From Planotetraspora silvatica (GTDB taxonomy: Bacteria > Actinomycetota > Actinomycetes > Streptosporangiales > Streptosporangiaceae): a stretch of 64,000 nt of DNA. The notes under the pieces are model-generated. The model was not told the DNA's origin. It worked only from the letters and a program-made list of their open reading frames with translations, and did no database searches. The position numbers and the translations under genes were made by a program. The DNA lies in NCBI RefSeq assembly GCF_016863315.1, contig NZ_BOOQ01000023.1, forward strand, positions 186,001 to 250,000, written 5' to 3'. Shown piece by piece: positions 51,441 to 58,441 of the stretch (position 1 is its first letter; every line of letters begins with the position of its first letter).

Positions 51441-52841
51441 ATGGACGGCGTGACGAAAATCGTGATCATTGGCGGCGGTCCCGGAGGCTATGAGGCGGCG
51501 CTCGTCGCCGCGCAACTGGGAGCACAGGTCACAGTGGTCGAGCGGGAGGGCCCCGGAGGGGCCTGCGTGCTGACCGACTGTGTGCCGTCGAAGACCCTGA
51601 TCGCCACATCCGTCCGCAAACAGGCGCTGCTCGACGCGTCCTCTCTCGGGGTGTATTTCAGCGGTGGGGAGGACGGCGACGTCGGCGGGGTCACCGCGGA
51701 CATGCCGCTGGTGAACAGGCGCGTCAAGGAGCTCGCCCAGGCGCAGTCCGGAGACATCGCCGCCCGGCTCGCCGCCGAGGGCGTCGAGGTGGTCAGGGCC
51801 GACGGCCGGCTGGTCGATCCCCAGCGGGTGCGAGCCGGCGACCGGACGATCCGGGCGGACGTCGTCATCGTGGCCACCGGGGCCCACCCGCGTGTCCTCC
51901 CGGGCGCCGAGCCCGACGGCGAGCGCATCTTGAGCTGGCGGCAGCTGTACGACCTGAAGGAGCTTCCCGAGCACCTCATCGTCGTCGGGTCCGGGGTGAC
52001 CGGCGCCGAGTTCGCCGGCGCCTACCAGTCGCTCGGCTCCGAGGTGACGCTGGTCTCCTCCCGGGACCGCATGATGCCGAACGAGGACGCCGACGCCGCG
52101 GAGGTCCTCGAAGAGGTCTACCGCCGCCGCGGCATGAACGTCATGGGCCGCTCACGGGCCGCGTCGGTCAAGCGCACCGAGGACGGCGTGGTCGTCACGC
52201 TGGAAGACGGCAGGACCGCCGAGGGCACCCATTGCCTGATGACCGTCGGCATGATCCCCAACACCGCGGGGATCGGGCTGGAGGACAACGGCGTGCGCCT
52301 GGACAAGAACGGCTTCATCGAGGTCGACAAGGTCTCCAGGACGTCGGCGCCGGGCGTCTACGCGGCCGGTGACTGCACCGGCGTGCAGATGCTCGCCTCC
52401 GTGGCGGCCATGCAGGGCCGGATCGCCGTCTGGCACGCGCTCGGCGAGGCCGTTCAGCCCATCAGGCTGGCGACGGTCGCCTCCAATATCTTCACCGACC
52501 CGGAGATCGCCGCCGTAGGTGTCTCGCAGAAGCAGATCGAGAGCGGCGAGATCGAGGCCAACGTCGTCAAGCTGCCTCTCGCCACCAACGCCAGGGCCAA
52601 GATGCAGGGCTTCAACGACGGCTTCGTCAAGTTGTTCTGCCGGCCGAACACGGGCATCGTCCTCGGCGGCGTCGTGGTCGCGCCCAGGGCGTCCGAGCTG
52701 ATCTTCGCCCTGTCCGTCGCCGTGCAGCACCGGCTGACCGTCGACCAGCTCGCTCACACCTTCGCGGTGTACCCCTCGCTGTCGGGCTCGATCCCCGAGG
52801 CGGCCCGGCGTCTCACGTCACCCCTGTCGGTGGACATCTGA
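51441..52841 (+). CDS. lpdA: NAD(P)H-quinone dehydrogenase, LpdA type
   Basis: 466-residue flavoprotein of the pyridine nucleotide disulfide reductase family. FAD site IIGGGPGGYEAAL, redox pair in GGACVLTDCVPSK (CxxxxC), NAD site VVGSGVTGAEFAGAYQSLG and second FAD site TSAPGVYAAGDC are clear. At the C-terminus the lipoamide-type HPT..E dyad is replaced by VYPSLSGSIPEAARR, the hallmark of the actinobacterial LpdA that reduces quinones and not lipoamide. Start is ATG 51441 or GTG 51450. Its 3' end overlaps the opposing pentapeptide gene by 24 bases. Confidence 0.92.
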   Translation: MDGVTKIVIIGGGPGGYEAALVAAQLGAQVTVVEREGPGGACVLTDCVPSKTLIATSVRKQALLDASSLGVYFSGGEDGDVGGVTADMPLVNRRVKELAQAQSGDIAARLAAEGVEVVRADGRLVDPQRVRAGDRTIRADVVIVATGAHPRVLPGAEPDGERILSWRQLYDLKELPEHLIVVGSGVTGAEFAGAYQSLGSEVTLVSSRDRMMPNEDADAAEVLEEVYRRRGMNVMGRSRAASVKRTEDGVVVTLEDGRTAEGTHCLMTVGMIPNTAGIGLEDNGVRLDKNGFIEVDKVSRTSAPGVYAAGDCTGVQMLASVAAMQGRIAVWHALGEAVQPIRLATVASNIFTDPEIAAVGVSQKQIESGEIEANVVKLPLATNARAKMQGFNDGFVKLFCRPNTGIVLGGVVVAPRASELIFALSVAVQHRLTVDQLAHTFAVYPSLSGSIPEAARRLTSPLSVDI

Positions 52842-53996
52842 CACCCGCCTTCTGGCCGCCTCCAGGGTCTGCCGCCCGTGCCGTACGGCCGCGGCGACTC
52901 CCTGGAGCTCCTGCGGTGTCTGCGCGATGAGCAGCGACCGCTTGGCGGCCTCGTAGGCGTCGAGAGTCGCCTGCCATTCGGTGCCGGGACCGCTCAACCG
53001 GCTGATCTCCATCTCGAAGTCCAGCGCGTCGATCTCCTCGCCGAATCGGGTGACGTCCTCCTCCGCAGCCCGGCGGGCGACCGCGTAGCCCGCGGAGGAG
53101 CGTCGCCGGTGCCGGTGGGCGGCCCCCCAGATCATGAGCGTCGCGCCCAGGCCGAGCGTGCTGAGGACGACCAGGACCACGGCGGTGGACGGGCCTTCCC
53201 CCGACCCGGTGAGCACACCGGTGATCGGGTTGCCGGCGTCGGCGGGCAGGATGGCGTCGTCGGGGACGTCCTCGGCAGAGCCGCGGGTCCCGGTGAGGTT
53301 GAGGTCGTCGGCCTGGACGAAGGTCGCGTCCTTGACGTCGGCGCCCCGCAGATCGGCCCCCTGGAGGTTGGCCTGGGTGAACTGGGCCTTCTCGAGATCG
53401 GCGTCCTTGAACACGGCGTACTGCAACTCGGCCTGGTCGAACGTGGCGTCCCGCAACCGGGCTCGGGTGAAATCCGCCGTACGGGCCTTGACCTGGCCGA
53501 GCTCGGCGCCCCGGAGATCGGCGTCCTTGAGGTCGGCGTCGGTGAGGTCGGCCTGGGTCAGCACGGTCCTGGTGAGGACGGCCTCGGTCAGGTCGGCATG
53601 CGGGAACTCGGCCTGACCGGCCTCCGCGTCGATGAGGACGGCCCCGCGGAAGTCGGCCTGCTTCGCCCGTAACTGGCCGAGATCGGCTTCACTCAGGTCG
53701 GCGCCCCGAAGATCGGCGTACTCCACATGGACCTGCGTCAGGTCGGCCTCCTTGAGGGACGCGTCCCGCAGGATGGCCCCGGTGAGGTCCTTCTGGCTCA
53801 GGTCCACCTCGTCGAGCTTGGCCTTGGTGAGGTCCGCGCATCGCAGGTCGGCGGGGAGGGGTGCGCCGCCGGTGAAGTCCTTGCCGCGAAGGTGGGGCCC
53901 ACTGCCGGGCTTGCACGGCCCCGCGGACGCCTGTACGGCCGTCGCCGGGGCGATCGCGAGGAACGCGGCGACGATGAGGGGGATGATGCGACGCAA
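52818..53996 (-). CDS. Membrane-anchored pentapeptide-repeat protein
   Basis: 392 residues. Signal peptide (LRRIIPLIVAAFLAIAPATA), then about 40 consecutive pentapeptide units of the A(D/N)LxX type (for example ADLRGADLSEADLGQL) covering about residues 50-250, which would form a right-handed beta-helix outside the cell. One transmembrane helix follows (VVLVVLSTLGLGATLMIWG), then a cytoplasmic helical domain beginning EEDVTRFGEEIDALDFEMEI. That last domain is shared with the neighbour at 54522. The TTG at 53996 has AGGAGG five bases upstream; the frame to 54128 passes through the repeat array. Ends overlapping lpdA. Confidence 0.88.
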   Translation of the reverse strand: MRRIIPLIVAAFLAIAPATAVQASAGPCKPGSGPHLRGKDFTGGAPLPADLRCADLTKAKLDEVDLSQKDLTGAILRDASLKEADLTQVHVEYADLRGADLSEADLGQLRAKQADFRGAVLIDAEAGQAEFPHADLTEAVLTRTVLTQADLTDADLKDADLRGAELGQVKARTADFTRARLRDATFDQAELQYAVFKDADLEKAQFTQANLQGADLRGADVKDATFVQADDLNLTGTRGSAEDVPDDAILPADAGNPITGVLTGSGEGPSTAVVLVVLSTLGLGATLMIWGAAHRHRRRSSAGYAVARRAAEEDVTRFGEEIDALDFEMEISRLSGPGTEWQATLDAYEAAKRSLLIAQTPQELQGVAAAVRHGRQTLEAARRRVSDVHRQG

Positions 53997-54062
53997 AGGA
54001 GCCTCCTGAACAACCCCCCCGAGTTTTTCCCACCCCGATCTTAACCTCCACCCCCACCCCGC

Positions 54063-54507
54063 CGTGATCATGCACAGGTTCGGGATCATGTCCTCTGGCC
54101 TGCGGATTTCCCGCGCGTGATCATGCACAGGTTCGTGAAAGTAGCCATTGACCAGCGCATTCTCGATGCGTGATCATGCGCGGATGCGGCCGGTGGGTGG
54201 CTGACCTGGGTCGTCGTCTTCCGTGATCATGCAGGCGTCCCGGGTTGTGTGCCCGTAGAACGCTTGTGGCCTTGCCCTCCTGGAGCGGAGCGCAAGGCCA
54301 CAAGGGTCGTACGGCAGGTCATCGTCGTCCGGCTCGTGCATGATCACGCACCATGAATGCGCCGGTCATGCACGTTGATCACGAACCTGTGCATGATCAC
54401 GGATAAGGAATCCGCTGGTCGCGGACCATGATTCCGAATCCGTGCATGATCACGACTCGGGAATGCACTGGTCGATGCCTGCTTTTGCGAATGTGTGCAT
54501 GATCACG
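54063..54507. repeat. Array of eight 53-bp units, four in each orientation, around a central hairpin
   Basis: The 20-bp block cgtgatcatgcacaggttcg starts at 54063, 54116, 54169 and 54222 (plus) and its complement at 54329, 54382, 54435 and 54488, each exactly 53 bases apart. Copies 54063, 54116 and 54382 are identical; others differ at a few positions. The 33-bp remainder is variable but keeps a block like gaccagcgcattc at the same offset (seen at 54150, and inverted at 54355, 54408 and 54461). The whole region is therefore an imperfect 445-bp inverted repeat centred on 54285. A period of 53 is not a multiple of three, so it is not coding. Confidence 0.92.
54263..54304. terminator. Hairpin at the centre of the 53-bp array
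   Basis: A perfect 13-bp stem, cttgtggccttgc with gcaaggccacaag, around a 16-base loop that contains ctcc/ggag. It lies at the symmetry centre of the array. No T-tract follows; it may act as a terminator of the TPM-like gene transcript or as the tip of a longer RNA fold. Confidence 0.6.
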
Positions 54508-54521
54508 GGGGGGTTGGGGGG

Positions 54522-55907
54522 TTACCAGTCGCCGCCGCCGCCGAAGTCTCCTCCGCCGAAGTCGCCGCCACCCCAGTCGCCTCCGCCGCCACCCCAGTCT
54601 CCGCCGCCGCCGAAGTCGCCTCCGCCGGCGTCGACGCCGTCCTGGTAACCGGCGTCGTATCCGCCGCCGCCGTAACCGCCGCCCCAGCCGCCGAACGCGC
54701 CGCCCAGCATGGTGCCGACGAGCATGCCGGTCAGCAGGTCACCGCCGAAGCCGCCGTAGTAGCCGTAGGCGTAGGGCTGGTAGGCGGGACCGGCGTCCCA
54801 GTACGGCCGGCGCTGGCCGTTGACCACGACCTCGCGCATCTGCGGGTCGAAGCCGCGCTCGACCGCCTCGGCGTCCGCGGCGCAGGCCGGAACCTCGCGC
54901 ATCGCGCCCCCGGGAGGGGACCAGCGCACGTTCTTGACCGAGGGGCCGTGCTGCGGGTTGAAGAAGCACGGCGGAAGCCGCTCGGGGAGCGGCTGGTTGT
55001 TCACGCGGGCCTTGACGCACGCGAGGGCGTAGCGGCCGTCCTCCAGGGTGGAGGTCACCGTGCGCAGGTCCTCCGAGCGCTTTACCGCGTCGAGCTCGGT
55101 CTTGGACCGCTCGTAGGAGTCGAGCGCCCGCTGCCAGTCGGCCGAGGTCTCGGCCTGCGGAAGCATCTTGACGTCCACGTCGAGGGCGGTGATCTCCTCA
55201 CCGAACTTGGTGACGTCCTCCTCCACGGTCTGCTTGACCGCGGCGAGTTCGGCGGCCTCGCGCTCCTCGCGCTTGCGCTTCATACGACGGGAGACGACCC
55301 ACAAACCGGCACCTCCGACGACGGCGATTCCGAGAATGCCCACCAGGATGCCGCTGCCACCGCCGCCACCGGCCGCGCTGCCGCTCTCGCCGGCGCCCCT
55401 GACGTCGCCTTCGACGGCCTTGTTCACCCGGTTGACGAAGTCCTCGATGCCGGGGACCAGTTCGCTGTTGTTGCCCGTGGAGAGCCTGGCCAGCTGGCCC
55501 GCCGAGACGTTGCGCGGCAGGGCGCTCGAACCGGCGAAGAGGCTGGTGCCGTCGAGAACGATCACCGTGGCGGCCGAACGGCCCGCCGCGTCGAGCTGGG
55601 TGCCCAGGGAGGTGATGTACTGACCGGCCTGGGCCGTGGTCACCGTGCCGTCAGGCATCGCGACCGCGTAGATCTTGGACTTGGACTCCTCCAGAGCCTT
55701 GCGGATGTCGCCCTGCTGGCCCGACGACAGGGGTGCTCCGCTCTGAACGAAGAGCGGGTCCCCACCTCGCCATCCCGCGAGCACGGTGGCGGGATCGGGC
55801 GGGGCCGCGGCGAGGGCGGCCGGGGAGAACGCGAACAACGCCAAGAGACCGACGGCCAGGGCCGCTATCGTGGCCCCCACACGGCTCAGCGGATGATTGA
55901 TCGTCAC
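54522..55907 (-). CDS. TPM-like membrane protein with Gly/Asp/Trp-rich C-terminus
   Basis: 461 residues. A signal peptide (AALAVGLLALFAFSPAALAA) precedes an extracytoplasmic domain of about 130 residues resembling the TPM/Psb32 fold (SSGQQGDIRKALEESKSKIYAVAMPDG). A Gly/Ser spacer and a transmembrane helix follow (GILVGILGIAVVGGAGLWVV), then a basic stretch and the helical domain EEDVTKFGEEITALDVDVKM that also ends the pentapeptide protein at 52818. A Cys-containing region with PPCFFNPQHGP and a tail of GGGDFGGGGDW repeats close the protein. Starts at GTG 55907 with GAAGGAGG about 12 bases upstream. Function unknown. Confidence 0.82.
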   Translation of the reverse strand: MTINHPLSRVGATIAALAVGLLALFAFSPAALAAAPPDPATVLAGWRGGDPLFVQSGAPLSSGQQGDIRKALEESKSKIYAVAMPDGTVTTAQAGQYITSLGTQLDAAGRSAATVIVLDGTSLFAGSSALPRNVSAGQLARLSTGNNSELVPGIEDFVNRVNKAVEGDVRGAGESGSAAGGGGGSGILVGILGIAVVGGAGLWVVSRRMKRKREEREAAELAAVKQTVEEDVTKFGEEITALDVDVKMLPQAETSADWQRALDSYERSKTELDAVKRSEDLRTVTSTLEDGRYALACVKARVNNQPLPERLPPCFFNPQHGPSVKNVRWSPPGGAMREVPACAADAEAVERGFDPQMREVVVNGQRRPYWDAGPAYQPYAYGYYGGFGGDLLTGMLVGTMLGGAFGGWGGGYGGGGYDAGYQDGVDAGGGDFGGGGDWGGGGGDWGGGDFGGGDFGGGGDW

Positions 55908-58168: not shown

Positions 58169-58441
58169 ATGGGTGACAAGGTCGGCGGAATCCTGCCGGA
58201 CATGGACAAGATGGCCCAGGTCTTCCGTACGCAGGGTGACGCCGTGATCTCAGTCCAGAAGGCGCTCGACGCCGAGGCCAAGAAGATCCCGGCCTCCTGG
58301 TCCGGCCCCAACGCGCAGAAGTTCCTCGACGCGTGGGAGAGCTACAAGAAGACCTTCGAGAACGTCCAGCAGACTCTGATCGAGGCGCAGGACGGCATCA
58401 AGAAGAACCGCGAGGCCATCGCCGCCGCGACCGGTTCCTGA
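58169..58441 (+). CDS. WXG100 family protein (ESAT-6-like)
   Basis: 90 residues, the canonical size. Two helices flank the WSG turn in ASWSGPNAQKFLDAWESY, and the end KKNREAIAAATGS is the flexible tail. These proteins are dimeric type VII secretion substrates or partners. The ATG at 58169 has GAAGGGGG upstream; a longer frame from 58121 is not family-like. It converges on the FtsK/EssC-type ATPase gene with a strong terminator between, so it has its own promoter in the 148-base gap after the carboxylase gene. Confidence 0.92.
   Translation: MGDKVGGILPDMDKMAQVFRTQGDAVISVQKALDAEAKKIPASWSGPNAQKFLDAWESYKKTFENVQQTLIEAQDGIKKNREAIAAATGS

Follow-up and report, generated by a model that had tools for sequence, protein, structure and literature searches.

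What is the element that lies between two genes at positions 54063-54507 of the window, i.e. of the whole 64,000-nucleotide stretch of Planotetraspora silvatica DNA analysed here? A 12-bp word of the CGTGATCATGCA type (hereafter R) occurs there four times forward and four times inverted, and every step between R copies on the same strand is exactly 53 bp, as the initial annotation had described; the central hairpin with a 13-bp stem that it reported was also confirmed on the window sequence, the stem being perfect (Table 1). The outer R copies run on as the CAGGTTCG type, and a second block (TGACCAGC type, also given as TGACCTGC type) follows R at a fixed offset. This block had been ascribed to every unit, and it is indeed present at a constant offset in three units per arm, but the innermost R of both arms has neither the block nor TTCG, so that each arm consists of three spacers bounded by four R copies. 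As for the flanking genes (gene calls throughout come from a purpose-made codon-usage caller), their products do have a domain in common, with 35% identity over 80 amino acids (E = 4e-13). It had been described as C-terminal in both, whereas it is C-terminal in the pentapeptide-repeat protein and central in the 461-aa protein, which has a Gly-rich tail. A small ORF elsewhere in the window (58169-58441) presumably resembles a WXG100 protein.

Table 1. Features of the array and its flanking genes (window coordinates).
Feature	Position	Strand	Basis
C-rich tract ahead of outermost forward R	54046..54062	+	window sequence; C enrichment upstream of outer R across 180 arms
R1, outermost, left arm, CGTGATCATGCA then CAGGTTCG	54063..54074	+	window sequence
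Second block, left unit 1, TGGCCTGC	54096..54103	+	window sequence; unit profile
R2, left arm	54116..54127	+	window sequence
Second block, left unit 2, TGACCAGC	54149..54156	+	window sequence; unit profile
R3, left arm	54169..54180	+	window sequence
Second block, left unit 3, TGACCTGG	54202..54209	+	window sequence; unit profile
R4, innermost left arm, without TTCG or second block	54222..54233	+	window sequence; rule from 180 arms
Central hairpin, perfect 13-bp stem 54263-54275 / 54292-54304	54263..54304	.	window sequence
R4', innermost right arm	54337..54348	-	window sequence
Second block, right unit 3	54361..54368	-	window sequence; unit profile
R3', right arm	54390..54401	-	window sequence
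Second block, right unit 2	54414..54421	-	window sequence; unit profile
R2', right arm	54443..54454	-	window sequence
Second block, right unit 1	54467..54474	-	window sequence; unit profile
R1', outermost right arm; stop codon of right-hand gene 14 bp away	54496..54507	-	window sequence
C-rich tract, right arm (G-rich on +)	54508..54521	-	window sequence
Flanking gene, 461 aa, 3' end abuts array; no Pfam match at E 0.01	54522..55907	-	codon-usage gene call; Pfam search
Flanking gene, pentapeptide-repeat protein, 392 aa, 5' end facing array	52818..53996	-	codon-usage gene call; Pfam search

The window array is one of a large family of several hundred similar arrays, which lie mostly at gene ends. 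Within G000, the genome of the window (8.66 Mb in 117 contigs), the array itself was matched 183 times and a three-block pattern 260 times forward and 245 times in reverse, as opposed to not once for a reversed-pattern control. A weight matrix of the 20-bp core (threshold 14) had 625 matches in the loci collected at that stage and none in base-shuffled copies of them. In 1.62 Mb of contiguous sequence from this genome we counted 81 arms, i.e. about 430 per genome by extrapolation. Pattern searches found the family both genome-wide and in related genomes, and the array is therefore not peculiar to one assembly. Members of the family are scattered among ordinary genes, so the location of the window array between two related ones, which the initial annotation had pointed out, is incidental.

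Across 631 units and 180 arms (a set that mixes species and holds orthologs; its counts are not independent), an arm can be described as n spacers bounded by n+1 R copies 53 bp apart and preceded by a C-rich tract. When the R copies of these arms are counted from the inside, all except the innermost are followed by TTCG in 98-100% of cases and by the second block in 92-96%, as opposed to 12% and 6%, respectively, for the innermost R. The C fraction at -15 to -6 upstream of the outer R is 0.58-0.73 in the same arms, and it is 0.55-0.64 in three arm classes as compared with 0.40 downstream of stop codons without arrays. Of the 269 same-strand R-to-R steps of up to 120 bp in the 1.62 Mb, 242 are exactly 53 bp and 12 are 52 bp. 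R is almost confined to the arrays, with four isolated matches (two of them intergenic) against the 81 arms; one isolated site, at C2:319812 of G000, is coding, in a host sequence that we take to be LipB-like, and was left out of the ortholog count.

Arms either stand alone or face each other (>>>> <<<<), and the contiguous set contains 27 facing pairs and 29 solos, i.e. arms with no facing arm within 300 bp. In one set that mixes species and includes orthologs, and whose counts are thus not independent, successive arms within 300 bp of each other faced inward in 61 cases and never stood back to back. Facing innermost R copies lie at variable distances with a peak at 25 bp, which accounts for 20 of 76 cases overall (again a mixed, non-independent set) and eight of 26 in the G000 contigs. 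Inward-facing arms may also bracket one or a few genes, at distances of 0.5-3.7 kb (L019, L033, L057, L061, L076 and L082, and in G000 C13:113438, C13:195082, C26:7572, C26:25371 and C26:175887). Along the chromosome, element positions are Poisson-like (CV 0.96), which does not bear out the regular spacing hinted at by one contig, and a strict alternation of solo arms, present on one contig, fails on others.

Are these arrays maintained, as the initial annotation suggested, or are they recent duplications of a segment? We compared orthologous arrays in 15 comparisons (one locus being set against two copies of the same species), excluding pairs with flanks below 78% or shorter than 250 bp, or with less than 70% identity over the array. 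Substitutions affected 2.8% of positions in R plus TTCG (38/1339), 9.3% in the second block (50/540) and 20.9% at variable positions (357/1709), while losses amounted to about 2% per position; the conserved blocks are under selection, in agreement with a maintained structure. Between loci the variable positions are saturated (mean identity 0.331, in a set that mixes species and orthologs and is not independent; 0.8% of sampled pairs of loci exceed 0.6), and the spacing is nonetheless kept. For the six array loci of a 100-kb region, G003 and G004 have arrays at all six, with place and orientation unchanged, and G002 at five, the orthologous arrays differing in unit number. Five arrays that are solo in G000 are also solo in G003 and G004; of these five, one has a facing partner in both G078 and G102. 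The position and exact spacing of the arrays are held by selection.

All five genomes of the window's genus that were searched carry the family, Planotetraspora mira, P. kaengkrachanensis and P. phitsanulokensis being among the matches listed. In a survey of 345 genomes of the order, based on exact-pattern searches that diverged versions can escape, the pattern was abundant in the five Planotetraspora genomes, G078 (277 forward and 275 reverse matches), G102 (102/131) and G053 (20/28). It was also abundant in four of the 15 genomes of another genus, g79 (G202, with 103/106, G136, G231 and G209), where G215 had 1/4 matches and the ten other genomes 0 or 1. The gap range of a class-wide search was one base short of the 53-bp step, giving 25 matches in the window's genome versus 630 otherwise, and the near-absence of matches outside the family therefore carries little weight.

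The motif that follows R differs between genera, being ACAGGTTCG in Planotetraspora, ACAnnTTCC in G078, TAGTTTGTCGCA in G202 and CGAATTCTCGCA or CAGTTTCTCGCA in G102 and G053. Even so, arrays of different genera share places. Among 27 elements from G078, G202 and G102 with flanks anchored in the collected Planotetraspora regions, ten had an array no more than 500 bp from the anchor and 17 had none, where one or two shared places would be expected (30 elements in 935 intergenic regions); this was a manual count with a loose pattern, in which some anchors are one-sided and some two-R matches perhaps due to chance. One element common to Planotetraspora, G202 and G102 has its own motif in each and the 53-bp step in all, and another is solo in Planotetraspora and a facing pair in G078 and G102. 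A binding protein that co-evolves with its sites would leave this trace, motifs changing in concert while their places are kept. In a further genus, G070 has the same layout with eight steps of 41 bp, one of 43 bp and two of 53 bp, although these are few elements at four loci of one genome, two of the loci having been chosen by the 53-bp pattern.

Several other sequences were seen in the course of these searches. In G107 (L275:508-538) and G067 (L276:496-532) a gene end is followed by a lone perfect palindrome R..R', preceded by C-rich sequence; such a single palindrome, which occurs with a C tract in genus g62, may be a minimal form of the element. In G373, from another family of the class, a C tract is followed by CGTGATCATGCAATCCCGCCACCC in tandem at 49-52 bp (L277, L278 and L279), perhaps a distant cousin. 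Two repeat copies in G106 (L176:1500-1581 and L180:1481-1562) contain near-perfect palindromes, GTGATCTTGCTCC..GGAGCAAGATCAC, 53 bp apart, and were left out of the family: both copies share other flanking sequence, suggesting a separate repeat family. At L160:7978-8215 of G202 an element is present where relatives have further genes between the same neighbours, and the left gene is extended by two codons, its stop being the TGA inside R. At G000 C2:235262-235441 (L103) the innermost R and the beginning of the next reading frame downstream overlap, as they do throughout Planotetraspora, G202 and G102 at this element.

With respect to gene orientation, elements were found in 12 of 183 convergent, 15 of 559 tandem and three of 193 divergent intergenic regions of 1.22 Mb, and in 10 of 114, 14 of 359 and one of 122, respectively, in a smaller set. 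On the outer side of an arm one usually finds a gene 3' end (53 of 77 arms, p = 0.0013), the median distance being 16 bp to 3' ends and 82 bp to 5' ends, and in 15 of the 53 arms that face 3' ends the stop codon is the TGA inside R. The G102 counterparts behave alike, with 13 of 19 arms facing 3' ends and the TGA of R serving as stop codon in five of the 13. Solo arrays in tandem regions appeared to be biased towards the sense direction (25/33, p = 0.0046) in a non-independent set that mixes species and contains orthologs and pattern-selected loci, but this bias was not reproduced in the contiguous G000 set, which is free of both and hence trusted more and in which 8/17 are in sense. It follows that the 53/77 excess reflects mainly convergent versus divergent settings. 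Avoidance of promoters would, on its own, likewise yield a preference for 3' ends. In addition, the element common to three genera has a xanthine-dehydrogenase-like subunit gene on one side and an 8-oxoguanine-deaminase-like gene on the other (functions assigned by eye from the translations), and these two genes look like one purine-catabolic operon; an element inside an apparent operon argues against a strict terminator.

How, then, might such an element work? The array probably serves as a landing site for a DNA-binding protein. The suggestion that as DNA it offers eight phased sites fits both the fixed spacing and the selected blocks, and the arrays look like predicted binding sites in that their spacing fits helical turns and their putative contacts are selected. 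Steps of 53 bp (about five turns) and 41 bp (about four turns), with a near-absence of other steps, point to a DNA-bound protein on one face of the helix. Strong contact would be made by R with TTCG, and the second block would serve as a degenerate inverted half-site. The predicted protein would oligomerise along a single helix face, on which the 53-bp step would place one protomer after another, protomers on successive in-phase units cooperating. Because each genus has its own version of the motif, the protein would have to co-evolve with its sites, genus by genus. Our main reading, to which we assign a rough probability of 0.5, is thus that the array is a high-avidity, helically phased platform for a sequence-specific protein, with a guessed function as barrier or boundary. 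Its parts differ in strength. That the arrays are bound by such a protein we consider likely, and that this protein oligomerises on one helix face is still a favoured, if less secure, expectation.

As to function, a barrier is our best guess. Arms lie close to stop codons, favour convergent gene ends and are scarce in divergent promoter regions; for this reason the bound array may form a barrier or boundary where transcription units end, one that a facing pair would render two-sided. On the other hand, facing arms frequently enclose a gene or a small number of genes, which counts against a barrier, and the loss of the sense bias in the G000 set made us lower a barrier to transcription from a position somewhat short of even odds to a tentative one. 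Equally speculative is a boundary system of the Streptosporangiaceae in which a co-evolving protein would coat hundreds of phased arrays at transcription-unit ends and facing arms would isolate the DNA between them; such a system would be the bacterial equivalent of oriented insulator or terminator arrays.

The main rival retains the protein-bound array and gives it a role in chromosome architecture (topological boundary or nucleoid anchoring) instead of transcription, the preference for 3' ends then reflecting harmless sites or the collection of supercoils. BIME elements are thought to have such roles. The wealth of elements in convergent regions and their scarcity in divergent ones agree with this, as do the large extrapolated number of arms per genome, the kilobases that sometimes separate inward-facing arms and the lack of direction bias among solos in the cleaner set. 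The spacing between facing inner R copies has, furthermore, a weak helical phase (p ~0.003 at 10.5 bp), which the 53-bp lattice alone may explain. Against it stand the Poisson-like positions and a placement some 16 bp from stop codons that is closer than architecture requires. We consider an architectural role possible, though no better than that, and about as likely as a barrier or boundary. One may also consider that the array acts once transcribed, the RNA folding into a long hairpin or forming a 3' UTR to which a protein binds, and so determines the end or stability of the mRNA; we hold this to be quite improbable. Arms do begin near stop codons, the two arms of a facing pair are complementary, strong hairpins occur at some centres, and the identity of facing arms at mirror positions is slightly raised (0.396 versus 0.344 at non-mirror positions and 0.331 between loci, in mixed, non-independent sets; strongest at the outer units). 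This excess could be due to copying between arms, and leaves slight room for such copying or for arm-to-arm interaction. However, in a covariance test of the imperfect unit dyad (TGCACAGGT .. ACCTGCGCA) in 594 units, pairing was close to expectation at all 13 pairs tested, the two halves varying independently, and this speaks against an RNA hairpin. Folding energies of units were close to those of column-shuffled ones (-14.1 versus -13.8), and in the window Rfam gave no match at gathering score, two sub-threshold matches falling at the array. Moreover, solos are as frequent as pairs and in tandem regions run in either direction, and exact spacing is maintained through near-neutral spacers. The 445-nt RNA hairpin envisaged by the initial annotation is accordingly not upheld as the functional form; of the two signs of function it had named, conserved position is found in relatives (G002, G003, G004 and other genera), and covariation within units is absent.

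Two further readings must be set against the protein platform that we prefer. The arrays might be MITE-like mobile remnants, their arms being transposase-binding ends and the centre or the bracketed genes cargo, in keeping with inverted arms that contain direct repeats, with dispersal, with a patchy occurrence over genera and with pairs that bracket genes. Of nine bracketed proteins tested (a sample excluding C13, C26 and G102; the bracketed genes of G001 and G078 were judged by eye), two stand out: a partial ISL3-type transposase at L076:1900-2334 (E = 4.7e-31) and a small HTH_17 protein at L033:2569-2772. The other seven are ordinary or matchless (TypA/BipA, P450, glycosyl hydrolase 20, DUF309, RibD_C, AraC-type and one without match), and with one partial transposase in nine we rejected a cargo transposon. 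The saturated variable positions, with so few pairs of loci alike, the purifying selection on the blocks and the places common to several genera despite a changed motif likewise make mobility unlikely. No array match was found in the phage and plasmid sequences searched, and a phage origin was also dismissed, as the five matches in viral contigs seem, when inspected, to be due to chance. The comparison with an empty site, made at one locus, was not clean, since gene order differed between the species. Finally, a few adjacent units are identical (in G003), as chance tandem expansion without function would produce; recurrence genome-wide, selection and places shared across genera refute that explanation for practical purposes.

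Do the arrays belong to a known kind of repeat? The nearest known class comprises the BIME/REP clusters of enterobacteria and the REPINs of Pseudomonas, which occur as hundreds of dispersed extragenic copies at gene 3' ends, in inverted pairs and lineage-specific versions. The arrays are alike in extragenic dispersal, 3' ends, inverted pairs and lineage-specific sequence, but differ in their direct-order units at a fixed 53 bp, in arms built as R-spacer-R with a special innermost R, and in units that are not conserved hairpins (594 units). The Y1 (RAYT-type) transposase, PF01797, had no match in seven of 12 array-bearing genomes (G000, G002, G003, G004, G078, G202 and G231) and matched in six of eight array-free ones, and a REP/RAYT identity was rejected on its absence from those seven. 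BIME/REP is thus like the arrays in place and dispersal and unlike them in unit structure, order and transposase. Mycobacterial interspersed repetitive units are actinobacterial tandem units between genes that touch stop codons, as do the arrays (compared here by description only), which differ in having inverted arms, saturated spacers at fixed spacing and selected blocks. In eukaryotes, Sal boxes form a terminator array downstream of rDNA that is bound by TTF-I; the likeness, tandem oriented putative protein sites past a gene end, is an analogy of working only, and the arrays belong to another domain of life, occur at hundreds of loci and form inverted pairs. Spacers of the arrays share the second block and TTCG, in contrast to the unrelated spacers of CRISPR.

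One listed ARG box of S. coelicolor contains GTGATCATGCAC (PMC5839063), and in the arrays R is deployed at 53-bp steps. ArgR is single-copy in 20 of 21 genomes, array-bearing or not, and none was detected in the array-rich G102; with no extra or array-linked copy, ArgR is not supported as the array protein. The literature that we could search, which covers few subscription journals, yielded no description of the element. For every repeat family named here, one or more of the defining features tested proved absent from the arrays, and we therefore set them apart as a kind of their own; if "dispersed extragenic repeat" is counted as one known kind, the arrays are a variant of that kind.

Hundreds of arrays per genome, with fixed spacing, an often fixed position across genera and a genus-wise motif, suggest that actinomycetes possess an abundant DNA-binding system, and the several hundred sites form a natural archive of how protein and DNA co-evolve. 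The ending of transcription units and the organisation of the chromosome in high-GC actinobacteria are poorly understood, and the arrays would open these questions to testing.
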